From Asparagopsis taxiformis (taxonomy: Eukaryota > Rhodophyta > Florideophyceae > Bonnemaisoniales > Bonnemaisoniaceae): a stretch of DNA of 64,000 nt. The stretch is taken from the NCBI GenBank assembly GCA_030407315.1, contig JALQPE010002294.1:62001-126000 (forward strand). Reading direction: 5' to 3'. The notes under the pieces were generated by a model. The model was not told where the DNA came from and did not search any database. It was given only the letters and a program-made list of their open reading frames with translations. Positions 11,960-62,413 of this stretch are shown here, piece after piece. Position 1 is the stretch's first letter, and each line of letters begins with the position of its first letter. Made by a program: the position numbers and the translations under genes.

Positions 11960-14827
11960 CGCCCCCTGTCGCCAAGGGCGGGGAGATCGATGAGCAGGGT
12001 GCTGGATGGTGTGTCGGGTACGGGATTCTCTGGCGGGGTGGCTATGATATGTAGTTGGGTGGTTAGGTTGGTGAAGGCCCTGGTTGGCATCGGCTTTGTA
12101 AAAATATCGGCTAGCATCTGATTAGTTGGTAGGTAGTGCAGCGCGATGCGGCCTTGTGCTATGTTGTCAATGATGTGGTGAAACTGATGTCGACGTATTT
12201 TCGTCGTTTCGTTGGTGCGGTTTGTGTGGCGATCTGTAGCGCGGATTGGGAATCTGTGAATGTGGTGATAGGTTTGGAGCGAGGGATGAGGGATAGTTCT
12301 TGTAGCATGCCTGCGAGCCAATTGGTTTGGCGAGTGGTGTCAGAAGCCGCTATGATTTCGGCTTCGCAGGTGCTTAGAGCGACCAAAGATTGTCGCTGTG
12401 AACCCCAGCTGATGGGCGAACCATGTAACGTGTGGACAGATCCTGATATAGACTTTCTGGACGTGGGTCGTTGGCGAAGTCTGCATCTGCGTAGGCTAAC
12501 AGTGGGGTGTCATGCGGGTGGTTCGGGAATGAAATGCCATGTGTTGGCGTGTGCTTCAGGAAGCGAATAAGTCGTTTCAAATGTTTCCAATGCCGTTGTG
12601 TTGGCTTGTGGTTAGCTCTGGCGAGTGCGTTTGTGAAAAATTGTATATCTGGTCTTGTAGAGTCGTGAGGTATCGCAGTTCCCAAGATTTCGCGATATGG
12701 CGTGGAAATTGTTTCGTCTAGCTGTTCCTCCGTACTGGGAGGAGAGAGATCGATGCCATCTGAGTATAGGTTGCTGAGAGGTTTGGCGTCGGCCAGGTTC
12801 GATTGGCGACGACGGACTGTATGATATGAGGCTGGGAGATAGTGATACCCAATTCGGAGTGGGTGATTTTCCAATTGAGGTATTGAGTTGGGGGTCCTAA
12901 CCTTTTGATGGTGTATTTGCGAGCAAGCATTTTGTATAGTGCCGTAAGCAAGTTGGGGGATGAGGCGCACGCCAGAAAGTCGTCAATGGTTATGGCGATG
13001 ATTGTGGTGCCGTTCTTGTTTGACCTTATGAATAAGCAAGGGTCGGACTTGGTTTGTGTGAAGCCGTTTGAAAGAAGGTATGTTCGTGCGCCGTCGCAGA
13101 ATTTTTTGCCACCTTGCCGTGTACCGTATAAATTTTTGTCGAGGCGCCCAGTTGGTTCCGGGTGTTTGAAGGTGCCATCGAAAGGGGGTGTTGGCAGATG
13201 AATACTGGCTTGTTGTGGTTGAAGTCTTCGTGCAAGTAGGCTGACGAGATGTCGAAATGCTCGGTGGGGAGCCTGTTTGCGGATGCGTGACAAAGGAGGA
13301 TGCGTATGGTGGCCTTGTCAGCTGTAAATGTGGCGGTGTCGTTTGAGTTGAAGTGCACGTCTGGAAGCATTAGGTCCCCGCGGACTGCGCAGCGCGCTTG
13401 CGCGTTCGGTTATGTTTCCGGCGCTGTCTCGTTTGTACCTGTATGCCATGGTGAGGGTAAGGGTTTTGTGTGAGGGGGACGAGGTGTGGGGGTGTCCATG
13501 TTATAACTTGCATTTGGTCCAGTTTGTCGAGCTCATCATTGTGTTCATGGTGCCAGAGGTGGGCGTCTGGATAGCGTTGCGCTTGTTTGAAGGTTTTGGG
13601 AGCTGGTGTAGTTGGGTTGATGGTTGATGGTATGAATTGTGCGTGCTGGTGAGGGCGGCGGGCGGATGTGCGGAAGGCTATGGAGGTTGTGGCGGATGGA
13701 TCTTTATCCTTGTGGTAAGGGCGAAAGTCTAGTGCAGAGATGTGCATAGATTGGTTGGTGTCGGTGTTGAGAGCCATGATTGTGTGTTGATCCATGCCGT
13801 GGAGGTATCGTATGGGAATGCCTCTGTTGTCGAGTTTGGATTTGGGTGCCAGGTTCGGTGTGTACCCGAGTTGACCGAATGCAAAAAGTCTTTGGATCTT
13901 GGGTTTGTGGCCGTGCCATACGGTGTACGGAATTTGGTTTGTGACGCTATGGAGGGTGATATTTCGTTTGAAGACTGCGTCGTGTAGGGCGTCTTCCCAG
14001 TGTACTGCGTGGAGGCCGCTGTGGAGCAAATTGGCGCGGACGGCGTCCATGAGCGTGCCATTGATGCGTTCGGCTACGCTGTTGTGTTGTGGGGTGTGGG
14101 GTACCGTGCGGATGTGTGTAATTCCGCGGTGGGCGAGCTCGTTCTGGAGCGTGGATGAAAGGTATTCTTTGGCGTTGTCCGATCTGAAGTAGGATGGATA
14201 ATTGTTGTGCAAGGTGCGAATATGTTCCATGACCTGGATGGTGATGCGCGGTATGGCCGATCTGTCGGGTGTACAATGGATGATGATGTAGCGGGATTTG
14301 GTGTCGATGAAGGTGACGAAGTACTTGTTGCCTTGTCTGGAAACGGGGTGAATTGGGCCGCATACGTCCGAGGAGATGTGTTTGCCCGTTTGGTGTTTGT
14401 GGTCAGCGGGATGGTGAGGGGCAGTTTTCAGTTTGGCGAGTGTGCATGCGCTGCATGTAATGTCTGCTGCTGGTTCGTCTGCGTGTGGTGCAAGGGCAGG
14501 AAGCATGGAATGTTTGCACATTTTACGGATGGTGGCTGGGTTGGCGTGGGACATTTGGAGATGAAGATTATGACCGGGGTCAGGTGGGGTTAGTTGCTCT
14601 GTGATGTCGATTTCTGTTGTTGGTTCCGTTTGTTTTCGTGGCAAGATGTAGTGATGGGAGTCTGATCGGCGCGGTCGTCCGTGTGTGAGTGATGGAATTG
14701 GGGTGGTAGTGGTTTGGGAGGGGTTTGTGCCGATGCACTGGGAGCGGTGTAAGTGGTTTTGTAGATGGAGGGGGTTCGGCGAGGTTTGGGTTTTGGTGGT
14801 GTGTGTGAACGGGGAGACTGGCGCCAA
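11845..14827 (-). pseudogene. Pol (integrase-RT-RNase H) of copia A copy 1, frameshifted
   Basis: Order on the sense strand is copia type. Integrase (14827-13370) has an H-H-C-C zinc region and the triad DVCGP, FRSDNAKEYL and NSVAERINGTL. RT pieces follow at 13370-13026 and 13293-12718, with FDISSAYLHEDF and ITIDDFLACA. RNase H pieces are at 12970-12374 and 12321-11845, with YADADFANDP and STCEAEIIAASD. At least three single-base shifts separate these pieces, for example near 13410, 13190 and 12460. Several are at short homopolymers where copy 2 has one more or one fewer base. The last frame reads into the 3' LTR. Decay or assembly error both fit. Confidence 0.8.
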
Positions 14828-23274: not shown

Positions 23275-23408
23275 CGTCGGCGAATACGGTTTCTATCATG
23301 TATTCATCCTCTTCCGGCGATTTCCTGATGTGTCGAGTCATTGGTTGTCTATTAGTGCTTGTATCCTTCCGTCTGCTTTCTCTCCATTCACGCATCATTC
23401 GTCCCTTG

Positions 23409-30504: not shown

Positions 30505-30538
30505 CACGAGCATTTTCTCTGATTGACAAATGTGTCTG

Positions 30539-35260: not shown

Positions 35261-35336
35261 CTGTTGTATCGCTTGGTTATAGCTTCTCTTGCTTCTCTAG
35301 CATATATGCTTCAGATTCGCAAAATAGTTATATAAC

Positions 35337-37216: not shown

Positions 37217-37367
37217 TGTGAAGTCTTGAGAGTCCGATACCCTCTCTGTTTATTGATCCGGCGTCGGAGCTATAAGTATCGATGGATTAGTTAATTTGTA
37301 ATTGAGATTTCTATGTGTTAATTGTTAATGGGTGCATTGCGGTGAGGAGACGAGATTTGTCTTCACA
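37217..37367 (-). repeat. 3' LTR of copia family D
   Basis: It is 151 bp with TG...CA ends and an outer GACGG duplication. Confidence 0.9.
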
Positions 37368-40166: not shown

Positions 40167-41617
40167 CGCGCGCCTTTTGCAGGGAGTGGTGTGGGGGTTT
40201 CTTTATGTGTTGGTTCGGGCTCAGTGACTATTTTTGTGTCGCGGACACAGTACATGTTGTCGCGCCATTCTGCAGTCAACATGATGCGGGGTTTTGTGGG
40301 ATGCTTGTTGTTGATGACGAAAGCGCGGGAGGGTGTGAATGTGACTTCTCCGTATTCTTGTGCGAGATCGTGAACAGATAGGAGGTTCGGAGAGATGGAT
40401 GGGTTGGCCACGGCTGGTATGGAAATGTGTGCTAGTGGGGATTTTAGGTGGAGGACTCCTCTGTGGGTGCAAGAGAAGACTTGGTTAGCTGCTGTGACAG
40501 AGGTGGAATGTTTCCGGATAGGACGCATTGCTGTTGTGGGGTGGGTGACGTGGGAAGGTTGAGCTCCTGAGTCGAGTATGAACGTACCGTCGCTTGTGTG
40601 GTGCGTGGTTGGCAGTGGTTCTATCTCTTGGTTTGTGGTGGGGGTGAAGCGGGCACTCTTCGCGTGGTTGCCATGTTTGGTGAGGTTTCTGGGGCGATTA
40701 GGGGGGCTTCGTGATTCATTCTTTGGGTGGTGGGGGTGGCGGCATTGTGAGTCGGAGTGTAGCGGTTTGAACCCTAGTGAGGTGTGATAAGAGCACGGAT
40801 GGCGGGGTGCTGGTCCGGCTTTGCGTCTATCGCGTGGTGTGGGCAGAGAGTCGTAGAAGGGGTGGGAGTATTTGCGCGGGGTGGTTATGGAGTGGGGTGC
40901 TTCTTCAAGCTGAATGAAGTCTTGAAGGTTGTGCATGCGTAGGGAGAATTCTTTGATGGATCTTGGGGTGTTTCCGGCTAGGAGCTTTCCCATTTCTATG
41001 CCTTTGCGGGAATGTTTCAGCCCTGTGAGCATGAGGTCGACGGTGGTTGCTTCGTCGTTTATGAGTGGGTAGTTCGCTGATATCATGCGGTCGCGGAGGG
41101 ATGCATGAGTGGATATGTAGTCGTTGATGGTGGTGTGGTCGAGGAAGCGGATAGACTCAGCTTCTCTGCGGAGGGATTGGTGATCGGCGGGTGTGTTGGT
41201 GGCGATTTCTTCTTCGATGCGCTGGAGAAGTTGGAAGGGTGTATTGGAGGACATGTTGCGCTTCACCACTCTCGTGGCGACGGTGGCTGGGAGTGATGAT
41301 ATAATGAGGGCTGTGAGGGCGTGCTGAGTACGGTGATGAGAATTGTTGTCCTGTAGGGACGTGTCGGATGTTAAATGTATGGATACGCCGTGGGCGGTGG
41401 CGGTAGCGTGAAGAGTAGCAAACCACGGATTGGGATTTTCGGGGATGAGCGTGGTCAGTGCAGGAAAGCTGATGGTGGGGGAGTCGGTGGGCGGTGAGGT
41501 GTTGTCAGTCATGTTGTGAGATGGATCGGAAGATGCGGATAGTGAGATAGATCGGTTCGTGATGAAGCGAAGATAGCGTAGATGTCGAGGTGTGTCGTCA
41601 GGTAGCGATGGGACCAT
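39926..41617 (-). CDS. Gag-protease of copia family D
   Basis: It is a 563-residue frame starting 5 nt inside the 5' LTR. Gag helices with ALTALIISSLPATVATRV and LRDRMISANYPLINDEATT correspond to the family A Gag. FILDSGAQPSHVTHP near residue 345 is the protease site. The C-terminus is Pro/Thr-rich. It overlaps the integrase frame (40166) by about 240 nt, the same arrangement as in family A, so both families probably express Pol by a frameshift. Confidence 0.85.
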   Translation of the reverse strand: MVPSLPDDTPRHLRYLRFITNRSISLSASSDPSHNMTDNTSPPTDSPTISFPALTTLIPENPNPWFATLHATATAHGVSIHLTSDTSLQDNNSHHRTQHALTALIISSLPATVATRVVKRNMSSNTPFQLLQRIEEEIATNTPADHQSLRREAESIRFLDHTTINDYISTHASLRDRMISANYPLINDEATTVDLMLTGLKHSRKGIEMGKLLAGNTPRSIKEFSLRMHNLQDFIQLEEAPHSITTPRKYSHPFYDSLPTPRDRRKAGPAPRHPCSYHTSLGFKPLHSDSQCRHPHHPKNESRSPPNRPRNLTKHGNHAKSARFTPTTNQEIEPLPTTHHTSDGTFILDSGAQPSHVTHPTTAMRPIRKHSTSVTAANQVFSCTHRGVLHLKSPLAHISIPAVANPSISPNLLSVHDLAQEYGEVTFTPSRAFVINNKHPTKPRIMLTAEWRDNMYCVRDTKIVTEPEPTHKETPTPLPAKGARCIPTSRKQPQKPSRNPTKGNLAPNHQQTLPGHHHDPSPIRLHLPHVQSPTDTPHPFPQHSNKPTTPPRPNRRQQRRKRH

Positions 41618-41621
41618 AACC

Positions 41622-41772
41622 TGTGAAGTCTTGAGAGTCCGATACCCTCTCTGTTTATTGATCCGGCGTCGGAGCTATAAGTATCGATGGATTAGTTAAT
41701 TTGTAATTGAGATTTCTATGTGTTAATTGTTAATGGGTGCATTGCGGTGAGGAGACGAGATTTGTCTTCACA
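41622..41772 (-). repeat. 5' LTR of copia family D
   Basis: It is 151 bp and matches the 3' LTR. The Gag ATG follows 5 nt inside. Confidence 0.9.
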
Positions 41773-41777
41773 GACGG

Positions 41778-42416
41778 TACATCGTTATTCGCGCAAGGCT
41801 TGAAACACCTACGCCATTGGTCCAGTCCACCGCCAAGATCTCGCAATCGACATCTGCGCCCACTGCTTTCACATTTCCACACGCGAGTCCGACCTCCCCG
41901 TGCAGCCTTCTCGTGTTGTCCAGCGCGGATCGCCACAAACCAAATGTATACTACATCGTATTGTGAAAATATGATCTCCAAAACGTGCTTACCGACTGCC
42001 ATAAGCACAGCCCCCCACATTAGAGGAAATTGCATGGACAACATTTCCGACATGACCAACAGCAGTGATCTCAGGAAACGGTCGGCAGCAAGGAATAATC
42101 TCCTTCTAGCCAGCAGCCAGAATGTCAGATTCGCCAAGCAGCAGCAGGTTACTAACGCCAAGGCACGGAGCAAGCACACTCGCCTCCTAGCTTCCACGAA
42201 CCGACCTACACATCCGTTCGCGCTCTGTAGGATATTAATAACAGACAGCCAGTCAGAAGGAAACATATAAACAACTGAATAAACGAAGCAAACGTCTCTC
42301 TTCCAACACTTGGGACGGCTCAAATACTCTTGCTTGCTGTAAAGTATAGCTTAACTGGTTTTTACAGATTTTCGCAAAGAAATGGAATTTGGGGATCTTG
42401 TACAATCTGTCCAGAT
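41778..42416. other. Inter-element spacer with an LTR-like patch
   Basis: Open frames cross this stretch on both strands (for example plus 41737-42270), but each begins in the copia D LTR and none shows a domain. At 42226-42308 there is an 83-bp patch starting TGTAGGATATTAATAACAGA and ending CTCTTCCAACA. It resembles the ends of solo LTR 1 and the copia A LTR but has no target duplication. Confidence 0.4.
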
Positions 42417-42595
42417 TGTTGGACAATGGTAGCTCCTCGCCTACCTTCTCTTTCTTTTGTCTTTACTTGGCAATATATATCTATTCATTGAGCCTTGAGA
42501 TCGCCGGCGGTGCGTATGACAGGCTGTCTTGTATTAGCATTCTGACTGTTGATCGCCACGGCGCTTGGCGACTGAGTTGTATTAGCATCCTGACA
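42417..42595 (-). repeat. 3' LTR of copia A copy 2 (long form)
   Basis: It is 179 bp with the internal duplicated unit, same length as 11781-11959. Confidence 0.85.
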
Positions 42596-42599
42596 CGCC

Positions 42600-43378
42600 C
42601 CCTGTCGCCAAGGGGCGGGGAGATCGATGAGCAGGGTGCTGGATGGTGTGTCGGGTACGGATTCTCTGGCGGGGTGGCTATGATATGTAGTTGGGTGGTT
42701 AGGTTGGTGAAGGCCCTGGTTGGCATCGGCTTTGTAAAAATATCGGCTAGCATCTGATTAGTTGGTAGGTAGTGCAGCGCGATGCGGCCTTGTGCTATGT
42801 TGTCAATGATGTGGTGAAACCTGATGTCGACGTATTTTCGTCGTTTCGTTGGTGCGGTTTGTGTGGCGATCTGTAGCGCGGATTGGGAATCTGTGAATGT
42901 GGTGATAGGTTTGGAGCGAGGGATGAGGGATAGTTCTTGTAGCATGCCTGCGAGCCAATTGGTTTGGCGAGTGGTGTCAGAAGCCGCTATGATTTCGGCT
43001 TCGCAGGTGCTTAGAGCGACCAAAGATTGTCGCTGTGAACCCCAGCTGATGGGCGAACCATGTAACGTGTGGACAGATCCTGATATAGACTTTCTGGACG
43101 TGGGGTCGTTGGCGAAGTCTGCATCTGCGTAGGCTAACAGTGGGGTGTCATGCGGGTGTTCGGGAATGAAATGCCATGTGTTGGCGTGTGCTTCAGGAAG
43201 CGAATAAGTCGTTTCAAATGTTTCCAATGCCGTTGTGTTGGCTTGTGGTTAGCTCTGGCGAGTGCGTTTGTGAAAAATTGTATATCTGGTCTTGTAGAGT
43301 CGGTGAGGTATCGCAGTTCCCCAAGGATTTCGCGATATGGCGTGGAAATTGTTTCGTCTAGCTGTTCCTCCGTACTGG
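42600..43378 (-). pseudogene. RT end and RNase H of copia A copy 2
   Basis: Minus-strand frame with ADADFANDPTSRKSISGSVH, STCEAEIIAASDTTRQTNWL, FTDSQSALQIA and MLADIFTKPMP. It is the 3' portion of Pol; the upstream RT part is 10.96 kb away, beyond the inserted element. A frameshift near 43190 separates the first part of this block. Where copy 1 is scrambled (around 12460) this copy is open. Confidence 0.8.
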
Positions 43379-44925
43379 AACACGGTTCAGTAATAAAACA
43401 GAATAAAAAAACTAGAACAGAATTTGCTGGATATGGGAAAATGGTAGCGTAAACGGCGCCTAGACTACAGTGCGTAGCACTGTAGAAAGAAATGCTGCCA
43501 CGTGTGCGTGGTTCCTGCTATTGTAAAATTAGCGTTGTTCCTTGAATAGTTTACAGCATTGCTACGGTGAAAAACTATTATTGAAACAGCTGCATTGAGT
43601 TCCTGTCGGTTATGCTGTGTTCTGCCTGTGTGGTTACACTGGTCAGTGTTTATTTTAAATCAAATTTCAAGAATTGCACATGACATGCAGTTGCACTTGG
43701 CAACCTTGAGGCAAGCTTGCGCGGCTGTGCTTGTACCATTTGCTCGTGTCCCAATGGCCGTCGCTATTGGCGGGCACCAATTCATCAGCTAGCTGGCTGG
43801 TTGTGGGCTGCTGGCTGTACTAGTTCCCTTGCGAGGATTTTGGGTGAGGCAGGCTGACTTCAGATCATTGTACTACATGTATGGTGATTAGTAGTTTTAG
43901 CTGGGGAGAAATTTACGATTCTGATTTGGAAGATACTGTGCACTAGCTGAAACTATACGCACGCCGACAGCTGCTATTGTTGCACTATGTCACAAAGAAA
44001 TGCATTCCAGGCAGTGTTCGACACTGCAGTGCTGAGTGTTCCTGAGCATATTGGTTCATATCTTAAATTCCACTGCAGTGAGCTGAAATGCGACCTATCG
44101 AAGTTTGAAGCTGCCGCTGACTGATAAGTTTCACGTCCATATATATATGGAAAAAACCATCAAATATTGTTTCCAGTTGTAGTGACTATGAATAGCAAAA
44201 AGTGAGATGACTTGTCAGTGTTTAAGTCAGTGGCTATGTAGACAGATGCCACAAGGATTTCCGACTGATTATTTGATGCGGGCAAACCTGCTGGATACAT
44301 GGGGAGTCTGCCAGCAGCGGTAGACTGCCGCTTTAAATACCAGTGTTTAACATCCTGTATCACAGGGGAATAATGCAGTCAGTATGTAGTGTGTAGTAGT
44401 GTTGCGCTATGAGGACACGTATGATAGGGAAGAAATGATATTTCAAACGGGTACAGCTGTCACATTACTATCATAGGCTGAGCACAAGACGGGGCTGTTC
44501 ACTGTTCAATGAGTCGTGCACATCATTGATGTTATACGATCGTATAACATCGCACGAGCACCTCGAGGTGCTCCGTTGTGTGACAAGGTACACTGTACAC
44601 TGACCGCCAATGAATGAAGCTTTTCTGTTGGTAGAATAGAGTTTGGAGGATGGCTACCATGTTCGGAGGTTGATATACATCACTACAAGTCCGTATTCAA
44701 ACTGCACGGGTACGTTTGCGGTATGCATTATATGATGATACCTGAACAATGAAATGCCGTAGAAGATTTCTAGTGGTAACAGAAGTAATATTCAACTTGT
44801 ATGGAGTATACCATATGCATGTATAGATTTGACTATAGCTTCATCTTCATTTCCTAATGTTGGTTTGACTGTTCTGATTTGGTGCAAGTTCAATTGAACC
44901 AGCACAGTATGTATAAGTAAGATTC
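43379..44925 (+). repeat. Left terminal inverted repeat arm
   Basis: About 1.55 kb, inverted copy of 52805-54335. Open frames inside (44160-44363, 43595-43792) recur unchanged in the other arm; they show arm identity rather than genes. Similarity resumes inward at 44927-44988, matching 52287-52348 inverted. Confidence 0.88.
44528..44573. promoter_or_regulatory. Paired perfect palindromes in the left arm
   Basis: A 24-nt perfect palindrome (44528-44551, core ATACGATCGTAT) is followed after 4 nt by an 18-nt perfect palindrome GAGCACCTCGAGGTGCTC (44556-44573). Dyads of this length suit dimeric DNA-binding proteins such as a ParB-like protein or a transposase. Function is inferred. Confidence 0.55.
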
Positions 44926-44988
44926 TTATGTAAGCGCAATAGCAGTCGTGCACAAAGCAAGATATGTTTATTGGATACATGGTTTGTT

Positions 44989-45305
44989 TATTGCATGCCA
45001 ATAGCGATATATTTCTGCGTGATCATTTGAAGGATAGGTGAAGAGCAATACTGCGGGATCGATTTTAGTTTCCCCGCACCTAAACTACTTCACTGAGGTT
45101 AAAAAGAAAATTGTTCCAATAGAAAAGCTTCATCTTTCCAGTCTGAGCCATAGAACATAGTACTGTATTGTAATCTTGATTCCCATTCATCAAGTTGTTT
45201 CTCTCTAAAGCCTAGCAACTTGTATACACTATGATTTCATAGTTGTTTAAAATCTTTCATTCTTTTAAAGACGTAGTATAACCAGCGATGAAAACCAATA
45301 AGAAG
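44989..45305. other. Spacer between left arm and methyltransferase gene
   Basis: AT-rich, no coding signal. It is the 3' side of the minus-strand methyltransferase gene. Confidence 0.4.
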
Positions 45306-48254
45306 CTACTCTAGTTGCATTGAATGCTCGAAGCACTCCTTAGAACATGACCACTTCTCGCATCGGTTAGCTAGACCAAGTACTCGCTTCCCATACTCAC
45401 AGGGAGAATGAATATATTTTCCACACATATCACACCGGTGACTTGTCATTGCAAAATGGCCATCAGGCATCAATGCAAGAACATTGCAGCGGTCACTGAG
45501 AATACAGTTGGTTCTGGTTGTGGTTTGCCCATCGGTAGGAGTTCTTGGACTAGTCTCTATCGGACAATTAGCCTCTTCGCCTAACCTTTTCTTCGAAGCA
45601 GTTCCACTTGAGGTTTCAGCACTATTCTTCTTGAGCCTCTTACTTTTTCGTACTGAATTCAGTTTTGGTCCTTTTGGTTCTAGATTGCGTTTTTGAAGCT
45701 CATTGGGACAGATATCTGTAGATAATACTGCCTCCGATGAAAGTGGAGTATCTCGACTAGCCAATCCCTCCACCTCCTTCTCAACTTTCTCAGCACAACC
45801 TCGAGACCTTCCACAACCAGGTAAGACCGTATTCGGCTCCCGACAAACCTGATCCGGTGATTGATGAACATTTTCCGTAGATGCTTCCCTGACTCTTCCT
45901 TCACTTCGAAGGGTTAAATTTGACGTTGATTTTTTCTTCATGAGGTCAGCAGCAACTTTTGCAAGCCTTTCCTTTCCCAATGACAAGCACAATTGGTCTT
46001 TTTCGATTAAGATAGCCTCACGGGAAGTTTGTAGGCATGCTAGACCTGTTGTCAACGTTCCTGCATAAGGATCACAGACGATGCCACCGGAAGGACAGAA
46101 TGAAGTTAACAATTCCTGCAACAGGTCTATATTTTTCTCCTCCACACGAACAATTTTCCTTGAATGAATATGCTGAAGCTTAGCTTTAGGGACAGGAACG
46201 CCATCTATAATGTTGAACTTCCTGCTATGAGAGCAATTGATTAGCTGATACGGACAGTCGAAATCTATGGCACGAGAACCATCCCTGACCTTTCCAGGGG
46301 CATATGCCAAAAGAATAAAGTCCACAGCACATTGAGGCATCTTGAGACGACCATTTCGCCGTATAGTCTTAGTATCTTTGGCCACGACAATTGGGTAATT
46401 TAAAACCTGAAAGCCATTAGAAGAGAAGGACGCGAACCATCTTGGAAAAGTTTGCCAGCTAGTGAACATGACAACCGAACCTTCTGGACATAGAAGTCTC
46501 CTTGAAAACTGTGTGAAAGCAGTGATTTCTTTGTCGTCCAGAAAGTCGTCATAGGTAGATCCAGCTCCGGAGGCAGATACGTTCTGAAGTGAATATGGAG
46601 GGTCTGTAAGAATTGTTGACACTCTGCCTTTCAACGACTCGTATGTTCCGCTGTGTTTCTCGAAGTGTTGCCACTCCATTGCAAAACACTTCATCCCTGC
46701 ATTCTCTAGGACACTTTCCACATCCGCTATTTCTTCTGTTAGAGCTGAAACGAGTTGTGGGCTTCGATGTTCTCTGTCTCCTGACGTTAAATTAGAACAA
46801 TCATTACTTGAAGCTTCTGGAATGGAAGAACAATTTGAGCGCTTGTCAGAATGAGCCAAAACTTTTCTGCTTCCGAGCGCGCCATAGTTTGCTTCTGATG
46901 CTTCAAGTTTTGAATCGTCTACTCCACATTCCGTTGGTAGATGACCATGTACTGAATGATTTCCAGTGTTGGAGGGAGAGGGCTCATTTTCTTCACTATA
47001 CACATCGTTCAACGGAGAGCCCTTTCTAGTCTCAGTATCTTTGTTCTGTCCTGTAGACGAACAGTCCATATCTCCTCGGAATTTGAGGAGCTTCTGATGC
47101 GCAACAGCGGGACATGACAATTTGAACGCTTTGTAGAAAGCAGGTAGCGGTTCAAGGAGATTTCCGAAATTAGCGGCTATTTCTTCATCAAATAGTTGTG
47201 TTCTTTCCGCGTTCCTTCGCATAACCTCCATCTCTTTCGGCCATAATACCGTCTCCATAAGCTTCTCGAATTTGCGCACTTCTTGTACAGCTGCACTCGC
47301 AGCGAGGAACTGTTCAGTGAGTACGGACGGCTTCATTGGACCATACCCGGATGACCGAGAAATCTCTCGAATGCGCCACAGCGAGTTCAGCTGAGCTGCC
47401 TCTCCGTCTGGACCTTCTGCATTCATGAAGGGAGTAGACCCCTTCAACGTTGAAGAAGAAATTAAGTTGCGGTATATCCTTGAGTCAACGGCAGCATTTT
47501 TTGAGTGTTTTGAGTTAGTCTTGTAGTGAATGCGCATGGCCAACTCCTTGTTCTCTTCATTCACAATTTTTCCAATTGTATCTATAACAGACTGAGGTAA
47601 CCTTATAACGCAGCCTGCCAGCTGCTTAATAGTTGAGGTACAAGCTTCCTTGCTTCCGGAATAATAAATTGCAAGTTCTATTGGTTTGGCTTTTCTGTTC
47701 AGTTTCGCGCTCAATGTGGTATAGTCTTGTTTGAGATTTTTCAACACGTCGTACTGTGTTGGGATGACGACGAAGTCGTCGACATTTTTCTGGTTACATG
47801 CTCTGGCAAAAGCGCGAAGTGCGGCCATTGAAGCAGACGTTTTGAGTATCGTAACAGTCCATGAGAAACCCGCCCATTTTGCTGGATCCTTACATATAAG
47901 TTTCTGCAACGCCGTCAAACGGTGCTCACCGTCCACTATTCCATACCACAGTTCTCTTTTTCTCACTTCCTTAATGGCATCCTCTTCACTCCCCATCTTT
48001 TCCCTAAAGTATTCCAGAGGATATGAGGCGTACACACCTTCTAGCCTGATGGCATATGCCATTGACCCTCCTGTTGTCAAACCTCCTAGCTCCTCAAAAA
48101 TGTTGCAAAGAACTTCAACACATCCGTCCACGATATTCCTAATTCGTGTGAACGGTAAACATGACATTGGATCTAGGCTCTGCGCAGTTGCTCCCTCTAG
48201 TAATTGAGCGAAATGCTCTTTCGCTGAGTTCATCCTTTGCAGATTAGATCCCAA
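45306..48254 (-). CDS. ParB-like/beta-class DNA methyltransferase fusion with C-terminal zinc region
   Basis: It is a 982-residue uninterrupted frame. Residues 65-120 end in GIVDGEHRLTAL (108-116), the DG-x-HR-x2-A motif of ParB/Srx-type domains that bind or hydrolyse nucleotides. A helical region follows (to about 395), then a Ser-rich linker. The methyltransferase domain spans about 515-765: motif IV DPPY (551-554) comes first and the SAM-binding motif I CDPYAGTLTTG (727-737) after it, the beta-class order used by N6-adenine or N4-cytosine enzymes. A Lys/Ser/Thr-rich tail leads to a Cys/His cluster (CDMCGKYIHSPC, then CEKWSCSKEC) near 925-975, probably zinc-binding. ParB-methyltransferase fusions are known from phages and plasmids; the zinc tail looks eukaryotic. 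It lies divergent to the 710-residue gene. Likely role: methylating element DNA; specificity unknown. Confidence 0.82.
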   Translation of the reverse strand: MGSNLQRMNSAKEHFAQLLEGATAQSLDPMSCLPFTRIRNIVDGCVEVLCNIFEELGGLTTGGSMAYAIRLEGVYASYPLEYFREKMGSEEDAIKEVRKRELWYGIVDGEHRLTALQKLICKDPAKWAGFSWTVTILKTSASMAALRAFARACNQKNVDDFVVIPTQYDVLKNLKQDYTTLSAKLNRKAKPIELAIYYSGSKEACTSTIKQLAGCVIRLPQSVIDTIGKIVNEENKELAMRIHYKTNSKHSKNAAVDSRIYRNLISSSTLKGSTPFMNAEGPDGEAAQLNSLWRIREISRSSGYGPMKPSVLTEQFLAASAAVQEVRKFEKLMETVLWPKEMEVMRRNAERTQLFDEEIAANFGNLLEPLPAFYKAFKLSCPAVAHQKLLKFRGDMDCSSTGQNKDTETRKGSPLNDVYSEENEPSPSNTGNHSVHGHLPTECGVDDSKLEASEANYGALGSRKVLAHSDKRSNCSSIPEASSNDCSNLTSGDREHRSPQLVSALTEEIADVESVLENAGMKCFAMEWQHFEKHSGTYESLKGRVSTILTDPPYSLQNVSASGAGSTYDDFLDDKEITAFTQFSRRLLCPEGSVVMFTSWQTFPRWFASFSSNGFQVLNYPIVVAKDTKTIRRNGRLKMPQCAVDFILLAYAPGKVRDGSRAIDFDCPYQLINCSHSRKFNIIDGVPVPKAKLQHIHSRKIVRVEEKNIDLLQELLTSFCPSGGIVCDPYAGTLTTGLACLQTSREAILIEKDQLCLSLGKERLAKVAADLMKKKSTSNLTLRSEGRVREASTENVHQSPDQVCREPNTVLPGCGRSRGCAEKVEKEVEGLASRDTPLSSEAVLSTDICPNELQKRNLEPKGPKLNSVRKSKRLKKNSAETSSGTASKKRLGEEANCPIETSPRTPTDGQTTTRTNCILSDRCNVLALMPDGHFAMTSHRCDMCGKYIHSPCEYGKRVLGLANRCEKWSCSKECFEHSMQLE

Positions 48255-50070
48255 TCAATCTCTGCAACAGCAAAGATTCTTGAAGTTGTTCTCCAGGAAC
48301 TCGGTAGGTGTAGGTGATGCTTGTACTCTTGTGCTTCTCTTGCTCTTGAATAAAATGTAGAGATTCAGGATCCTAAAAGAGAAGAATTCAAGTAGAAGTG
48401 TCTCGTTGATCTTTTCTGGATCTGTGAAAGACTTATTTGTGTTTTCACGAGCTTTCGAATCGCAAAAAGCTTGCTAGGAAACTGTAGAAAACAATTATTC
48501 GAGGAGATCCAAGATGCTTGAAAGGAAAGATAGGGTATGAATATTATCTCAGGAATTGAACTGAAATCCTTCCGATACTTCTCTGGATGTCAGCACCGTA
48601 TCAACTGATTGGAATCATCATAGAGTGAAATTTGGCTGTTTGTAAAGTGCAATTTATGAGCTACAGAGCTGCTTTCGTTAACTGCGATGTCACCGAATAT
48701 CAGAAACAGAGAACAACACGCTCCGTTAAGAAAGCTGATTTCGTTGAATAACACCTAGTATTCAAGGAGAACTTCAATGGTTGATATAGCCCCACACAAT
48801 TAATTGAAATTTAAAGTATCTGCACAGCCTTTCTATTTGTAAATTCTGTCCATCATGTGATCGAATACTGGGAGACAAAAATACCTTTCGGATTGGAAAG
48901 AGCTCTAAGAGATGTTGGCCTGTGAACATTTTCGACGGGTCACATGCTCCTGTACGTAATATCACGTGAGACACATACGTGTCTTCAAAATAGAATGGAA
49001 AACTAAAGCACAGGCCAAGTATCCATGAATAAGTAGAACAGCACAGTTCCATTTAGGGTTATGAACAGTTCGTCATTGGTTGGACCAATAGTAACTTACA
49101 CCAGATTCCTCATTTTGAAGCGATCTTATATCCATGAATTTTTTTCTGTCATACATTTCTATCATACTTCGTCATGACAGTTGGAAGGCCGCAGCTTTTC
49201 AACTTTCTTATACCTCAGAGAGCATGTAGTAGCACGAAAAGTTTATCATATCCGGTGTAATTCCCATTACATGACCATATGAGGTTTAGTATGCCTCTCG
49301 TACAGTGGAGCTGTTGCGAGTCATGACGCAAGCTTCCTCTAGTTATCGATTGCAAGCATTGTTGTCTCGCGTGTGCCCCACCAAAAACATAACTTTTCAG
49401 ACAGACCTGACCTACAGGCCGCAACCTGTAAACAGGTCTTGGATGGTCAACTGTCAGAAGGTAGACAGGTCACTGTTGGCATGAACGGTCACTAAAGCTC
49501 GAGTGTCACTTGAATGCGGTGATATTATGTATCAGTTTCAAGAGAAACAGCTAGTAAACAGGCTGTTTCGTTTGGAATTGGAATACAATAATTATGTGAA
49601 CGCTGACTCGCTGATACATTACGCGGGATCGGAGGATATCGAAACAATATGTTTCTGAGTGAAGATATTTCGGACATCTAGTGCGGCCATCTCTTTAAAA
49701 AATCATCGGCTGTCTATACGTTTCTCTTCCGCATGGAACCTAAATCTTCCCCTGCTTCTTCGACGCAGAGTATTGCATTCAGCCTGAAATGCAGTGTCAG
49801 GATACTGGTAAAAAGCCGTTGGATTCAAGGGCGTTTCGTTTCGAGTTCTAGACTGGTCTAGTTTCTTAAAGCTCGTCCTGCCATGAATGAAATTCTGTAA
49901 CGAAACTATTATCATCTTCCCTTCTACCACTATTTAAGACTTCTCATTCGTTCATCAAAACATCTGAAGTTGAACTGATAAAAGAAGATACCCAAAGAAA
50001 AGAGGCCGAATGAGGACAGCGAAAAGAGGGAGAAGGGCTTTATTCTCCACCAGAGTTAGTTATTACCAGG
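48255..50070. other. Divergent intergenic region of the TIR transposon
   Basis: It is 1.8 kb between the two start codons. AT-rich, with open frames below 93 codons and no motif. It must hold both promoters; no single TATA box stands out. Confidence 0.4.
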
Positions 50071-52203
50071 ATGGGTCTCTCTGAGCTGAAAATCAAACGT
50101 TTACGGAATGCGAATGAATCAATGGACCTCAATATATCCGAATGGAAGTGCTGCAAGGGAAAACGCTGCTTCACTAGAGTGAATCAGGTGTATTTCAAAG
50201 CACAAAGGAAAAGGTTCTTCGAAATGACTCAGGCACAGCGAAAACTATCATTGATATCCATGCTAAGGATTGTTGATACGAACAACATAACAAAGCAGAG
50301 ATATTTCTTTGATGGTCTTCAAGTATGTTCCAGGTTCCTGGAGGTTGGATTTGGGATGTCTAGATTTCTACAATGTGCAGTCAAAGAAACTCCCAAATCT
50401 TCCGGCTCGAAATCGATCATACGTATGCCTATTCTAGGCGCGAAACAAACCGCTAGAGATTCCATAAGATCGTTTCTCGAATATCTTGCAGAGTGCACTG
50501 CCAACAAAATGCCGGACTGCAGCCAACTACATCTACCGTATTTTGAGAAGAAGCATGTGTATGAACGTTTCGAGATGCAATGGAGAGAACAAGACGGTAC
50601 AGGAAACATTCTAGCTGTTCCTACTTACGCGTATTTTATCACCGTGTGGCAATCATATTGCCAGGATATCAAGTGCAGGCGGGTACATCGATTCTCAAAG
50701 TGTGACGTGTGTGAACAACTAAGGCAACAACTAGCAGATGCAGGAATAGATCGCTTAAAGACTGACGCGCTCCGTGAACTACAAAAGAAGCATCATCAAT
50801 TCGTTGAAAAGGAACGGTTACAGTATTACAAGAACAGAGAACTGGCAAGAAAATTACCAAAGAAGTTTGCGAGCATCATCATAGACGGAGCATCCCAAAG
50901 CGCTTATGGACTTCCGCATTGGCCATATGAAACAAAGGCAACACAACGGGGTCACAAAATTGGTGTACACCTCACAGGCATACTGGAGCACGCGTCTCCG
51001 AATAAGCTTACACTGTTAACTATGACGGACGAGCACAAAACAGGCGCTAACCACGTTATTGAAGCACTACATAGATGGCTATCCCGGAAAGAGATGGAGG
51101 GGAGACTACCAGATGTTTTATTTGTTCAGGTCGACAATTGTACGCGTGAGAATAAGAATCGGTACTTCTTTTCTTACATAGAATGCCTCGTGGCACTGGA
51201 AGTGTTTTCAGAGATACAAGTGTCATTTTTACCTGTAGGTCATACCCACGAGGATATCGACCAAAGCTTTTCCTGTACCTCCAAACGGCTCAAGACCCAC
51301 TCTGCAGTTACCTTGCAGGATTTAATTCATGAGCTGTCATGTTCATATACTCCCCAGCCTCATGTCAGCCATATGTTGCATGTCATAAATCTGTCGTCTC
51401 TTTTCGAACAGTCTCACTGCCTCGCTAACGTGCCCCCATTTTCGCACTTCAGGTACTTCCGCTTTTCTAAGGAGGCTGGAGAACCAAGAAGTCGATATGA
51501 AAGGTCCAGAACTACTGTCTCTGTTAAAGAGGCTTGTCAGCTTGAATGGAACTATTTGCATTCAGATAAGTCAGGGGGATTCCTAAAGTTCACACCGGAT
51601 ATTTTCTCAGCTCCTCCAACATTTACCACTCCCCCAGAAAACTTTCTCGAAGTACGCCGTGGTATCTTCTCTGCGGAGTCTCGAATTGCTAGCAAAGTCA
51701 AGATGGATGAGCTTGAGAAGCTTGTTGATACGATTTACAAACCAAGAAAGGATCCTATGCACTGGAGCAAGAGTTCATCTCCAGAATCAGTTTTACAGTT
51801 AAAATGCTCGCGTAAGAGGGATGGAATGATTACGACTGAAGGCAGTGACACTGAGGAAGAATCCGTCATTGATTATAGCTACTCTATTGATGATATGATT
51901 GCAATTCGAACTGATGATGAGAGCTGCCCTTTCTGGCTTGCTTCCGTTGATGGAGTTATTGCGAATGGGGATGGTCTTATCCATCGACTGAAAATCGTGT
52001 GGCTAGAAGCTTACGGTAACAAGAAAGATCCACACCTTTCGAAATATAGGCGAGCAATTCTGAGCAACAACAAGGAGTGGACGGCAGAAATTAGTTCCAA
52101 TACCGTCTTGGCGCGTTTAACAAATTGCGACGAGACAATCGTCTTTCAACTGATGACTCAAAGCGAATCAAAGAATCTCTATCCACCTGTCTGTAGCATG
52201 TAA
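50071..52203 (+). CDS. DUF7869-like protein, candidate transposase
   Basis: It is a 710-residue intact frame; ATG at 50071 is the first in frame. The N-terminus has a CC-x4-C cluster (27-33) and helices. RFSKCDVCEQL (208-217) is a CxxC pair. Then come FASIIIDGASQSAYGLPHWP (D272), a TMTDEHKTG turn, VLFVQVDNCTRENKN (D355) and FLPVGHTHEDIDQSFS (387-401). This layout is what I recall for the DUF7869 family of fungi, algae, oomycetes and corals. Strand-D, strand-D, then an acidic H-x-H-E-D-x-D cluster would fit an RNase H-like DDE/D nuclease, but catalysis is inference. The C-terminal third is acidic and Ser-rich. As the only other gene in the TIR element it is the best transposase candidate. Confidence 0.7.
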   Translation: MGLSELKIKRLRNANESMDLNISEWKCCKGKRCFTRVNQVYFKAQRKRFFEMTQAQRKLSLISMLRIVDTNNITKQRYFFDGLQVCSRFLEVGFGMSRFLQCAVKETPKSSGSKSIIRMPILGAKQTARDSIRSFLEYLAECTANKMPDCSQLHLPYFEKKHVYERFEMQWREQDGTGNILAVPTYAYFITVWQSYCQDIKCRRVHRFSKCDVCEQLRQQLADAGIDRLKTDALRELQKKHHQFVEKERLQYYKNRELARKLPKKFASIIIDGASQSAYGLPHWPYETKATQRGHKIGVHLTGILEHASPNKLTLLTMTDEHKTGANHVIEALHRWLSRKEMEGRLPDVLFVQVDNCTRENKNRYFFSYIECLVALEVFSEIQVSFLPVGHTHEDIDQSFSCTSKRLKTHSAVTLQDLIHELSCSYTPQPHVSHMLHVINLSSLFEQSHCLANVPPFSHFRYFRFSKEAGEPRSRYERSRTTVSVKEACQLEWNYLHSDKSGGFLKFTPDIFSAPPTFTTPPENFLEVRRGIFSAESRIASKVKMDELEKLVDTIYKPRKDPMHWSKSSSPESVLQLKCSRKRDGMITTEGSDTEEESVIDYSYSIDDMIAIRTDDESCPFWLASVDGVIANGDGLIHRLKIVWLEAYGNKKDPHLSKYRRAILSNNKEWTAEISSNTVLARLTNCDETIVFQLMTQSESKNLYPPVCSM

Positions 52204-52804
52204 CTTTTGGATTAAATTTCCTCTTGTTCTTCTTTAGAGCGCGCGTTCTGTATTTACCTCCTACGTAAGCGCTTCGAAATCTACTACACAAACTATGTAT
52301 ACCATAGACATATCTTAATCTGTGCACGACTGCTATTGCGCTTACATACGTGCACGTACACTCCAACCGTCTTTCCCTTTCCGTTTAGCTGCTTTGTTTG
52401 GCGTTTCAGCTGTGCAAGTGTAAACCCCGAAGCCTACAGAACTGTACAGCTGAACGTTTGCGGCACCTGTGTGTACACGTCTATGAAACTATAGCTTGGA
52501 TAGACATTTGAGGGGTCGCTATAGCGACACCCAGTTCCTATTTTGACGGCGGTCTGGTACTTTCCGCTTGTGTACACATTCTTGACGGACTTCAATTGCA
52601 TACTATGAGTACGCTACACGAAGGAGTGCCAGCCGTTACACTTCGTGCTAGATGAAGTTCAGAACCTCGTGAACGTGCTACTGCCTGCGGTTGGGCCCAT
52701 CGGCTTGGCTGACAGGAGCCATTCAGTTGATTTCCCTTGCCCAGCTTCACCATTTCTCCTTTCTTATAAAATAAGTGCAGTTGTTGTACACCCATTGGTA
52801 GGAT
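52204..52804. other. Spacer and right-arm-specific segment
   Basis: 52287-52348 is an inverted match to 44927-44988 in the left half. 52349-52804 (about 456 bp) has no partner on the left, so the right side gained it or the left lost it. No gene seen. Confidence 0.5.
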
Positions 52805-54335
52805 GAATCTTACCTATAGATACTGTGCAGGTTCAATTGAACTTGCACCAAATCAGAACAGTCAAACCAACATTAGGAAATGAAGATGAAGCTATAGTCA
52901 AATCTATACATGCATATGGTATACTCCATACAAGTTGAATATTACTTCTGTTACCACTAGAAATCTTCTACGGCATTTCATTGTTCAGGTATCATCATAT
53001 AATGCATACCGCAAACGTACCCGTGCAGTTTGAATACGGACTTGTAGTGATGTATATCAACCTCCGAACATGGTAGCCATCCTCCAAACTCTATTCTACC
53101 AACAGAAAAGCTTCATTCATTGGCGGTCAGTGTACAGTGTACCTTGTCACACAACGGAGCACCTCGAGGTGCTCGTGCGATGTTATACGATCGTATAACA
53201 TCAATGATGTGCACGACTCATTGAACAGTGAACAGCCCCGTCTTGTGCTCAGCCTATGATAGTAATGTGACAGCTGTACCCGTTTGAAATATCATTTCTT
53301 CCCTATCATACGTGTCCTCATAGCGCAACACTACTACACACTACATACTGACTGCATTATTCCCCTGTGATACAGGATGTTAAACACTGGTATTTAAAGC
53401 GGCAGTCTACCGCTGCTGGCAGACTCCCCATGTATCCAGCAGGTTTGCCCGCATCAAATAATCAGTCGGAAATCCTTGTGGCATCTGTCTACATAGCCAC
53501 TGACTTAAACACTGACAAGTCATCTCACTTTTTGCTATTCATAGTCACTACAACTGGAAACAATATTTGATGGTTTTTTCCATATGTATATGGACGTGAA
53601 ACTTATCAGTCAGCGGCAGCTTCAAACTTCGATAGGTCGCATTTCAGCTCACTGCAGTGGAATTTAAGATATGAACCAATATGCTCAGGAACACTCAGCA
53701 CTGCAGTGTCGAACACTGCCTGGAATGCATTTCTTTGTGACATAGTGCAACAATAGCAGCTGTCGGCGTGCGTATAGTTTCAGCTAGTGCACAGTATCTT
53801 CCAAATCAGAATCGTAAATTTCTCCCCAGCTAAAACTACTAATCACCATACATGTAGTACAATGATCTGAAGTCAGCCTGCCTCACCCAAAATCCTCGCA
53901 AGGGAACTAGTACAGCCAGCAGCCCACAACCAGCCAGCTAGCTGATGAATTGGTGCCCGCCAATAGCGACGGCCATTGGGACACGAGCAAATGGTACAAG
54001 CACAGCCGCGCAAGCTTGCCTCAAGGTTGCCAAGTGCAACTGCATGTCATGTGCAATTCTTGAAATTTGATTTAAAATAAACACTGACCAGTGTAACCAC
54101 ACAGGCAGAACACAGCATAACCGACAGGAACTCAATGCAGCTGTTTCAATAATAGTTTTTCACCGTAGCAATGCTGTAAACTATTCAAGGAACAACGCTA
54201 ATTTTACAATAGCAGGAACCACGCACACGTGGCAGCATTTCTTTCTACAGTGCTACGCACTGTAGTCTAGGCGCCGTTTACGCTACCATTTTCCCATATC
54301 CAGCAAATTCGTTCTAGTTTTTTTTTCTGTTGTTA
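52805..54335 (-). repeat. Right terminal inverted repeat arm
   Basis: About 1.53 kb, inverted copy of the left arm with scattered substitutions and a few small indels, mainly in the outer 40 bp. Confidence 0.88.
53157..53202. promoter_or_regulatory. Paired perfect palindromes in the right arm
   Basis: Mirror of the left-arm pair: the 18-nt palindrome at 53157-53174 and the 24-nt one at 53179-53202, both still perfect. Confidence 0.55.
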
Positions 54336-54346
54336 CTCCGTACTGG

Positions 54347-56438
54347 GAGGAGAGAGATCGATGCCATCTGAGTATAGGTTGCTGAGAGGTTTGGCGTCGG
54401 CCAGGTTCGATTTGGCGACGACGGACTGTATGATATGAGGCTGGGAGATAGTGATACCCAATTCGGAGTGGGTGATTTTCCAATTGAGGTATTGAGTTGG
54501 GGGTCCTAACCTTTTGATGGTGTATTTGCGAGCAAGCATTTTGTATAGTGCCGTAAGCAAGTTGGGGGATGAGGCGCACGCCAGAAAGTCGTCAATGGTT
54601 ATGGCGATGATTGTGGTGCCGTTCTTGTTTGCCCTTATGAATAAGCAAGGGTCGGACTTGGTTTGTGTGAAGCCGTTTGAAAGAAGGTATGTTCGTGCGC
54701 CGTCGCAGAATGTTTTGCCACCTTGCCGTGTACCGTATAAATTTTTGTCGAGGCGCCCAGTTGGTTCCGGGTGTTTGAAGGTGCCATCGAAAAGGGGGTG
54801 TTGGCAGATGAATACTGGCTTGTTGTGGTTGAAGTCTTCGTGCAAGTAGGCTGACGAGATGTCGAAATGCTCGGTGGGGAGCCTGTTTGCGGATGCGTGA
54901 CAAAGGAGGATGCGTATGGTGGCCTTGTCAGCTGTAAATGTGGCGGTGTCGTTTGAGTTGAAGTGCACGTCTGGAAGCATTAGGTCCCCGCGGACTGCGC
55001 AGCGCGCTTTGCGTTCGGTTATGTTTCCGGCGCTGTCTCGTTTGTACCTGTATGCCATGGTGAGGGGTAAGGGTTTTGTGTGAGGGGGGACGAGGTGTGG
55101 GGGTGTCCATGTTATAACTTGCATTTGGTCCAGTTTGTCGAGCTCATCATTGTGTGCATGGTGCCAGAGGTGGGCGTCTGGATAGCGTTGCGCTTGTTTG
55201 AAGGTTTTGGGAGCTGGTGTAGTTGGGTTGATGGTTGATGGTATGAATTGTGCGTGCTGGTGAGGGCGGCGGGCGGATGTGCGGAAGGCTATGGAGGTTG
55301 TGGCGGATGGATCTTTATCCTTGTGGTAAGGGCGAAAGTCTAGTGCAGAGATGTGCATAGATTGGTTGGTGTCGGTGTTGAGAGCCATGATTGTGTGTTG
55401 ATCCATGCCGTGGAGGTATCGTATGGGAATGCCTCTGTTGTCGAGTTTGGATTTGGGTGCCAGGTTCGGTGTGTACCCGAGTTGACCGAATGCAAAAAGT
55501 CTTTGGATCTTGGGTTTGTGGCCGTGCCATACGGTGTACGGAATTTGGTTTGTGACGCTATGGAGGGTGATGTTTCGTTTGAAGACTGCGTCGTGTAGGG
55601 CGTCTTCCCAGTGTACTGCGTGGAGGCCGCTGTGGAGCAAATTGGCGCGGACGGCGTCCATGAGCGTGCCATTGATGCGTTCAGCTACGCTGTTGTGTTG
55701 TGGGGTGTGGGGTACCGTGCGGATGTGTGTAATTCCGCGGTGGGCGAGCTCGTTCTGGAGCGTGGATGAAAGGTATTCTTTGGCGTTGTCCGATCTGAAG
55801 TAGGATGGATAATTGTTGTGCAAGGTGCGAATATGTTCCATGACCTGGATGGTGATGCGCGGTATGGCCGATCTGTCGGGTGTACAATGGATGATGATGT
55901 AGCGGGATTTGGTGTCGATGAAGGTGACGAAGTACTTGTTGCCTTGTCTGGAAACGGGGTGAATTGGGCCGCATACGTCCGAGGAGATGTGTTTGCCCGT
56001 TTGGTGTTTGTGGTCAGCGGGATGGTGAGGGGCAGTTTTCAGTTTGGCGAGTGTGCATGCGCTGCATGTAATGTCTGCTGCTGGTTCGTCTGCGTGTGGT
56101 GCAAGGGCAGGAAGCATGGAATGTTTGCACATTTTACGGATGGTGGCTGGGTTGGCGTGGGACATTTGGAGATGAAGATTATGACCGGGGTCAGGTGGGG
56201 TTAGTTGCTCTGTGATGTCGATTTCTGTTGTTGGTTCCGTTTTGTTTTCGTGGCAAGATGTAGTGATGGGAGTCTGATCGGCGCGGTCGTCCGTGTGTGA
56301 GTGATGGAATTGGGTGGTAGTGGTTTGGGAGGGGTTTGTGCCGATGCACTGGGAGCGGTGTAAGTGGTTTTGTAGATGGAGGGGGTTCGGCGAGGTTTGG
56401 GTTTTGGTGGTGTGTGTGAACGGGGAGACTGGCGCCAA
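54347..56438 (-). pseudogene. Integrase and RT start of copia A copy 2, cut by insertion
   Basis: One open frame of about 700 residues. Integrase has SSDVCGPIHPVSRQG, FRSDNAKEYLS and NSVAERINGTL. RT has HFDISSAYLHEDFNH, DKNLYGTRQGGKTF and ITIDDFLACASS. It stops within the inserted TIR element after NLYSDGIDLSPPST. Unlike copy 1, the frame is intact from integrase through the RT catalytic motif, so the element was probably active when struck. It overlaps the Gag frame (56201) by about 240 nt. Confidence 0.85.
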
Positions 56439-58895: not shown

Positions 58896-59122
58896 CTAGT
58901 GTCTATCGGACAAGTGGCCTCATATGAGGTCAAATGACCTCATATGAGGCCACTTTTTACCACTGTAGTTTAAATTGAAAAAATAAACGAATAGCTCCAA
59001 TTTTACCACTAGAAGACTCGCCGGCGAGATTAATGATATGGCAGGGCAGAGTGAATGCTGAAATTTTAATCCTTCCATCAGAAAACTACGTCAACTCAAT
59101 CTCGATCCTGAAATCACAAAAA

Positions 59123-61222: not shown

Positions 61223-61486
61223 GTATGCTCTCTCTATGGGTGCTTTAAACGCCCTTTAGTCACGCATTGATATCCAAAATAGAAAAATGAGATACTCCTC
61301 TAGCCCCCTCCGATTCTGACTGGCGTTCTCGACTTGCTCAGTAAACTTCTGCTTATGGCGGAATTCCCCTTTATGAAATGTCACCTTATACTGTCTCATG
61401 TTCAAGTGGGCGCGTAAGCATCCTAAAGCAGAAGTTGCAACTAAGAATCGGCGAGTTCTCCGAAGAGAATTTTCGAGCTGCCCAAG

Positions 61487-61558
61487 CAACTCAGCGAGGA
61501 GTCGAACCTCCGCCCTCTGGCTTTCCCGAGAGGTGCCAACCACTCAGCCATATGAGGA
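61487..61558 (-). other. tRNA-like segment of piggyBac-like copy 2
   Basis: On the minus strand, box A TGGCTGAGTGG (61540-61550) and box B GGTTCGACTCC (61498-61508) are both exact. Same place and orientation relative to the transposase as in copy 1. The acceptor-stem bases differ from copy 1, but both promoter boxes are unchanged. Confidence 0.6.
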
Positions 61559-61737
61559 CATGTGTCCGAAAGGCAAGCAATGCTTTATACAATGCAATGC
61601 TTGCGTTAGAAGTTTTATAAAAGCGATATAAAGAGGGAATGCTAAATTCTAATAATTTCTAGTAGATTTTTTTTCTGCCTCATATGAGGCCAGGGTTGAC
61701 CTCATATGAGGAAATTTTAATGTCCGATAGACACTAG

Positions 61738-62413
61738 AAGTCCACGAATTGATGAAAGGTGGACAGTGAATGAAAAGGTTCATCTCCCGTTGAATAAACT
61801 GATCTCTGCGTGACGACGTTGTGCTCCCTCAGACAGCATACCCTAACAGGTTGACAATGAAAAATTGATGCTTCCAACAGGAATTACAGGGGAGAAGCAA
61901 AACTTATTTTGGATGCGCAGCCGGAGGGAAACCGATTGGCCAGGGAAGAGCCAAGGGGATATCTGGATTCTCTCAATAGCCAATCATGATCCAGGAGATT
62001 GGAAAAACAGAAATTATAAGAGGGCAGACTCCTTTCAAGCAGGTGCTGAAAGGCTTGAGGGACTGCTGTTCGTGTGGAAAGTCACTGTTTAATTTAATGA
62101 AAGAAAACGGACAGCACAATGACATCGTCTCCCTCTGTAAAGATAGTGCATCCAAGGTTTTCCGCAATACAATCGATTTTGTACAATCATCCGCTTTGCA
62201 AGCACTTCGTCATTCTTTTACACGTCCATTCAAAGATTAAAATGAAATCGGAATCCTGCACCGTCACAATACCAGGCTTGCTGAATTCCGCAATCAACTT
62301 TTGATGATTTCCATCACTCTCATAACACATTCTTTACAATTTCCTTATCTACAACACTTTTCCACCATTTCCAAAACCTACCTGCTACCACCATCATCAT
62401 CTCTATATTCGCG
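61738..62413. other. Intergenic, no recognised gene
   Basis: Right flank of the piggyBac-like insertion and the 3' side of the membrane-protein gene. No domain-bearing frame. Confidence 0.4.

Follow-up and report, generated by a model that had tools for sequence, protein, structure and literature searches.

In the red alga Asparagopsis taxiformis, a giant DNA transposon occupies positions 43379-54335 of the window, by which we mean the whole 64,000-nucleotide stretch of contig JALQPE010002294.1 analysed here. The element carries two divergent genes, one for a 710-aa protein of the unnamed Pfam family DUF7869 and one for a 975-aa DNA methyltransferase (methylase). Our preferred reading, to which we give a probability of about 0.6, is that this would be a Sola-like element moving by cut and paste, with the DUF7869 protein as its transposase and the methylase as an anti-silencing accessory. 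As judged from its near-identical copies, the element has moved in the recent past; it belongs to family A, one of four related families (A to D).

The features of the element, with positions in the window and strand in brackets, are:

43379..54335 (no strand): whole element, 10,957 bp here and 10,974 bp in ten other measured copies
43379..44925 (+): left terminal inverted repeat (TIR), starting AACACGG
52805..54335 (-): right TIR, without the first 18 nt present at the left end
43379..43422 (+): terminal signature, AACACNG plus CAGAA boxes starting at 21 and 40, common to families A, C and D
43368..43378: target duplication, left copy, 11 bp, CTCCGTACTGG
54336..54346: target duplication, right copy, 11 bp, CTCCGTACTGG
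12728..12738: empty site, the target CTCCGTACTGG present once, in an uninterrupted copia element
45306..48233 (-): gene for the 975-aa methyltransferase; ParB-like motif in the N-terminal part, Cys/His cluster (seen by eye) in the C-terminal part
45993..46622 (-): N6_N4_Mtase domain (PF01555), residues 538-747, Pfam E 1.3e-14, over the cut-off
46593..46604 (-): catalytic motif DPPY, residues 544-547, from the alignment
47898..47948 (-): ParB-like box WYGIVDGEHRLTALQKL, residues 96-112, from the alignment and hhalign
48234..50070: spacer of 1.84 kb between the divergent genes
50071..52203 (+): gene for the 710-aa DUF7869 protein, from the open reading frame and Pfam; over the last ~26 residues the frame differs from that of four other copies
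50941..51483 (+): DUF7869 domain (PF25273), residues 291-471, Pfam E 1.2e-50

The sequence-only reading had described a TIR transposon with two long intact divergent genes, enclosed by near-identical inverted arms of about 1.5 kb and inserted into a retrotransposon. Most of this description stands. The arms (43394-44925 and 52805-54335) align at 99.5% over 1,533 bp in a self-comparison of the window, and inverted repeats, target duplications and many dispersed copies mark a TIR transposon. The insertion interrupts a copia element, recognised by Pfam from its rve and RVT_2 domains; an uninterrupted copy of this copia element lies at 12-16 kb of the same window and holds the empty site. Both genes are open, but for the DUF7869 gene intactness applies to the body only, as its end is frame-shifted: the genome comparison aligns only residues 1-686, and the four other copies end at 708 aa. 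The window copy has two further peculiarities, its 11-bp duplication, compared with 4 bp in nine of ten other copies read, and a damaged right end, where the outer-TIR query aligns from nt 19 to 601. The spacer presumably holds the promoters of both genes. Rfam gave no match across 42000-56000.

The genome searched comprises 141 Mb in 3,156 contigs. Copy numbers are lower bounds, taken from the best or first places listed, and some contigs may be alleles. There are at least 14 near-identical DUF7869 matches, the window copy included, and a 601-bp query from the outer part of the TIR matches 34 times genome-wide. Ten copies with both ends full over these 601 bp measure 10,974 bp each, and an eleventh (C2316) measures 10,973 bp. 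Exact 4-bp duplications flank nine of the ten family A copies with both flanks read (CTAT, ATGT, ACGA, ACGT, GAGG, GTAC, AATA, TAAG and ACAT). Two of these copies, on C128 and C1625, have both flanks alike at 94-96% and are a single locus seen twice, or a duplication, so that eight of nine independent family A sites have 4 bp.

Three further families are related to this one. Relative to family A, family B has 64-66% identity in DUF7869 and 61-64% in the methylase. The corresponding values for family C are 58% and 52%; its arms of 1,216 bp are 100% identical, and the one copy read has a 4-bp ATAT duplication, provided that the element starts at AACAC. Family D (42% and 31%) has an element of ~13.5 kb in which methylase and DUF7869 stand in tandem between oppositely oriented ends AACACTGGTTTTYGTCTGTACAGAA (for example C606:90314-103791). 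Exact 4-bp duplications were found in nine of 13 family D copies read at both ends, which brings families A, C and D together to 19 of 24 copies read. Position 41317 of C294 was rejected as the left end of family D, as the flanks show an internal breakpoint; a pattern search located the ends. Family D also encodes a 373-aa protein (C294:42282-43403, minus strand). In hhalign, 96 columns from its C-terminal region pair with the C-terminal end of the DUF7869 alignment (98.8%). Pfam gave no DUF7869 match in this protein and the core is absent; it may be a transposition regulator.

The ends of these elements point to DUF7869 as the transposase. Families A, C and D all start with AACAC[AGT]G, and their CAGAA boxes fall exactly on positions 21 and 40; this signature is probably the transposase-binding site. 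Both boxes were in place in 15 of 200,000 50-mers sampled from the same DNA, which includes real ends, and the pattern AACACNG-N13-CAGAA has 605 matches in the genome compared with 94 for the reversed pattern. Proximity was assessed with the first 100 listed signature places, on contigs up to C438, and with the 33 DUF7869 domain hits on those contigs, out of 150 scored of 502 candidates. For eighteen of the 33, a listed signature end lies no more than 12 kb away, with the hit on its inner side. None of the 65 PF01555 methylase-domain hits on the same contigs lies inside a listed end at that distance, but these hits are not independent, a single other repeat accounting for most of them. Signature ends also accompany DUF7869 in families without a detected methylase. 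This association of the ends with DUF7869, methylase or not, is our main argument that the 710-aa protein is a probable transposase. On C413, three same-strand signature ends (64404, 71222 and 78040) are spaced by exactly 6,818 bp, which suggests a tandem array of an element.

The domain match bears out the earlier naming of the 710-aa protein as DUF7869-like. Residues D272, D395 and D397 are kept in 80 of the 80 sequences aligned, and D355 in 79; D272 lies just ahead of the domain. It is possible that these aspartates form a three-aspartate (DDD) centre of RNase H-like type. A search of PDB with the DUF7869 profile returned a sole match, to Nucleophosmin (E 0.088), which we take as chance. 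The term DUF7869 occurred in no paper of the literature collection searched. The role proposed here gives this Pfam family a likely function as a transposase.

The 975-aa protein was earlier called a ParB-like/DNA methyltransferase fusion, and its two halves fared differently. By its DPPY motif and PF01555 domain, it is classed as a beta-type N6_N4 DNA methyltransferase, a type in which DPPY comes ahead of the S-adenosylmethionine (AdoMet) motif. The best NCBIfam match is PRK13699 (a DNA methyltransferase subfamily, not base-specific by name), and the adenine-specific models CcrM and PRK11524 also rank among the best; all three matches fall far short of the cut-off. On this basis N6-methyladenine (6mA) would be a likelier product than N4-methylcytosine (4mC). 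The ParB half is on weaker ground. In hhalign, a 14-residue box, IVDGEHRLTALQKL, pairs with the ParB_N region of YcdA from phage phiH (probability 21.6%, 14 columns), but none of 18 members matches ParB_N; GmrSD_N was matched in four of the 18 (best E 0.028) and DndB in one (0.099). Searches of viral contigs and prokaryote genomes gave no confirmed relatives, the scans relying on short conserved peptides and being weak negatives.

At least 12 other full-length copies match the window methylase at 100%, and the 12 methylase genes checked in this genome all retain DPPY and are free of internal stops; among the methylase matches listed, some others do contain stops. Two copies at 97% identity differ at 26 synonymous and 25 nonsynonymous positions, and the ratio of nonsynonymous to synonymous rates (dN/dS) is 0.27, a value that indicates purifying selection in this one pair. 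Closer pairs gave ratios from 0.14 to 0.61 on few differences, one pair being identical, and in wider pairs the synonymous sites have reached saturation.

The two genes are adjacent in 65 of the 91 methylase loci among the matches listed, which have DUF7869 within 6 kb. Fifty-six of these pairs are divergent and nine are in tandem with the methylase first; neither of the other two orders occurs. The remaining 26 loci have no DUF7869 match among the best hits listed, and ten of them are family D copies with a DUF7869 3′ end where expected. Beyond this genome, a protein database search gave 16 relatives of the methylase, ten of them on contigs of 7 kb or more. For seven of those ten, the longest contig equals in size that of a DUF7869 match (best 120 of 260 listed), which speaks indirectly for linkage. 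Over nine pairs, three from this genome and six linked through equal-size contigs, the identity distances of the two proteins correlate with r = 0.89, a value reached in 2 of 20,000 permutations; methylase and DUF7869 have therefore co-diverged. Both trees contain the groups {A,C}, {D,c7926}, {D,c7926,c8748} and {c7268,c7375,c7569}; branches are long, and the deeper forks differ or are open.

Such close co-divergence of exactly these two proteins, in only two of four gene orders, suggests a direct functional tie. Dam methylation ties the movement of IS10 to replication. By analogy, the methylase might mark the binding sites, with DUF7869 requiring ends that are methylated, or else hemimethylated, so that movement would be tied to replication. 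The CAGAA boxes at the ends do contain adenines, but CAGAA is not palindromic. Transposition gated in this way also fits poorly with three relatives that have an altered catalytic motif and are still linked to DUF7869 through equal-size contigs. We consider it unlikely.

These relatives are among several observations that weigh against the preferred reading itself. Within a set of 17 relatives viewed, four (P0132, P0133, P0134 and P0137) have EPPD, EPPE or EPPA in place of DPPY, and the last three were matched to DUF7869 by the equal size of their longest contigs. Methyl transfer is probably not needed everywhere, one lineage having apparently kept the partner and lost catalysis. One of the ten family A copies (C2317) and four of the 13 family D copies (C606, C1640, C2738 and C1620) are without an exact 4-bp duplication, and 15 of the 33 DUF7869 hits are without a listed signature end within 12 kb. 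In addition, an analysis of palindromic motif enrichment in the TIRs gave nothing convincing and no recognition motif.

The altered motifs could also mean that the methylase serves chiefly to bind DNA, to bridge or to regulate, as a subunit for end pairing or transposase recruitment, with methylation secondary or lost. N-terminal residues such as G98, D101, G102, A108 and R144, invariant or nearly so in the alignment covering that part, are in keeping with such a role. Set against it is the retention of DPPY, in uninterrupted genes, in all twelve methylases checked in this genome, and we regard this reading as improbable. More speculatively, the element may control its movement by an epigenetic mark of its own: the transposase and a prokaryote-type methylase, co-diverging over very long times, may form an obligate two-protein machine in which the writer marks the ends and the transposase or the host reads them, the writer of one lineage being by now a non-catalytic binder; we offer this idea as a doubtful one.

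In the cut-and-paste model that we prefer, the DUF7869 protein would read the ends by AACACNG and the paired CAGAA boxes. Its DDD centre, of RNase H-like type, would release the element, and the protein would insert it through a 4-bp staggered cut. We assign excision and insertion to this protein because of the end signature, the target duplications and the conserved aspartates. The methylase, as a stable accessory, would use its N-terminal part to bind element DNA, and adenine is the base that it would most likely methylate there. This methylation would keep the promoters and ends of the element open and competent for transposition against host silencing. A marking role is proposed because the two genes have co-diverged, because one pair of copies shows purifying selection and because 6mA accompanies active chromatin in several eukaryotes, according to the excerpted text of PMC12695648. 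The methylase/DUF7869 pair becomes a testable unit, with the methylated base, its site and a dependence of the transposase on the methylation as the points of interest.

The same genome holds a second methylase repeat. It encodes a protein of ~1,186 aa and lies at C3:34326-35066 and at least 39 other places, at least 40 copies being identical over 741 nt. This methylase has a DPPF motif and is 28% identical to the 975-aa protein; a first look gave 471 candidates. Among the matches listed, no DUF7869 was detected near this repeat, nor, on contigs up to C438, any listed signature end within 12 kb. Ten of 150 methylase-domain hits have DUF7869 within 6 kb, and none of the ten comes from the repeat. 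These results speak against placing the repeat in the same elements, although a DUF7869 partner outside the listed matches may have escaped notice. A methylase that multiplies without a detected DUF7869 nearby would suit the idea that the methylase of the present element is passive cargo riding along by chance, as would the giant elements of Ectocarpus, whose accessory genes are mostly of unknown function in the excerpted account (PMC12477816). This idea is opposed by the co-divergence, by the dN/dS of 0.27 for one copy pair and by the DUF7869 partners found, in several families, at no fewer than 65 of the 91 methylase loci; we think it very improbable.

The window holds other mobile DNA as well. 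Positions 3574-6382 and 58928-61738 are inverted copies (92%) with a DDE_Tnp_1_7 transposase gene, which we take to be of piggyBac type. A DDE_Tnp_4 transposase fragment, presumably of Harbinger type, lies at 7748-8530 on the minus strand. Direct-repeat pairs of 99.6-100% identity flank retrotransposon-like open reading frames at 29933-35908, 19073-24816 and 37217-41773; these three units, the first of them checked with Pfam, are probably young long terminal repeat elements.

Several known systems resemble this element in part. The closest is Sola1-1_Ec32 of Ectocarpus, a giant DNA transposon of 21.5 kb in which a 1,104-aa protein with ParB-like and methyltransferase parts is encoded opposite the transposase strand (PMC12477816, excerpted text). 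The authors propose that this protein binds and modifies the DNA of its own element, and they cite Iyer 2011 and Petroll 2025 for cases in green and red algae. Because this gene arrangement is already reported, the claim of the sequence-only reading that the element represents an undescribed class is untenable. The element at 43379-54335 is a new member of a reported algal type and, by its features, likely belongs to Sola. The excerpt describes one Sola-1 family, whereas we find several families of 11-13.5 kb where measured, one of them with tandem genes.

According to the portion of PMC10741241 at hand, Sola elements have a DDD transposase, 4-bp target-site duplications and TIRs of 11-1,124 bp, and some exceed 15 kb. 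The duplications of family A (9/10), family D (9/13) and family C (1/1) agree with this, and the conserved aspartates of DUF7869 may do so too; the window copy has 11 bp, and TIRs here are longer, at 1.2 kb (family C) and 1.5 kb (family A). The same source gives target duplications of 7-12 bp for Mutator-like elements, which are excluded because 19 of the 24 copies read in families A, C and D have 4 bp and the window copy alone has 11 bp. Also excluded, by the AACACNG termini and the 4-bp duplications, are EnSpm/CACTA elements. Their termini begin CACTA or CACTG, and their duplications are of 2-3 bp.

Methyltransferases have been reported in other mobile elements. Giant-virus Mariner elements are likewise DNA transposons that encode one, but they have a Mariner transposase, an endonuclease and other methylase domains, and the excerpt makes no mention of DUF7869 (PMC3627910). 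In Symbiodinium and in charophytes it is retrotransposons that carry a functional DNA methylase, in the excerpted account a cytosine-5 enzyme derived from the host (PMC5890265), in contrast to the prokaryote-type amino-methylase in a DNA transposon described here. The bdelloid N4CMT is also a prokaryote-type N6_N4_Mtase in a eukaryote, but the excerpt presents it as a host gene with a chromodomain and not as element-borne (PMC8885841). YcdA of the Halobacterium phage phiH has the same order of ParB_N and then N6_N4_Mtase, and the methylase halves align (hhalign E 2.5e-21); however, it has 419 aa and no transposase, and the N-terminal comparison aligned only the 14-residue box. In print, as far as the excerpted text goes, the pair was thus represented by one gene in one Ectocarpus family and by citations to other algae (PMC12477816). 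Our data add its pairing across divergent families with matching divergence, defined ends with target duplications, and signs of recent activity.

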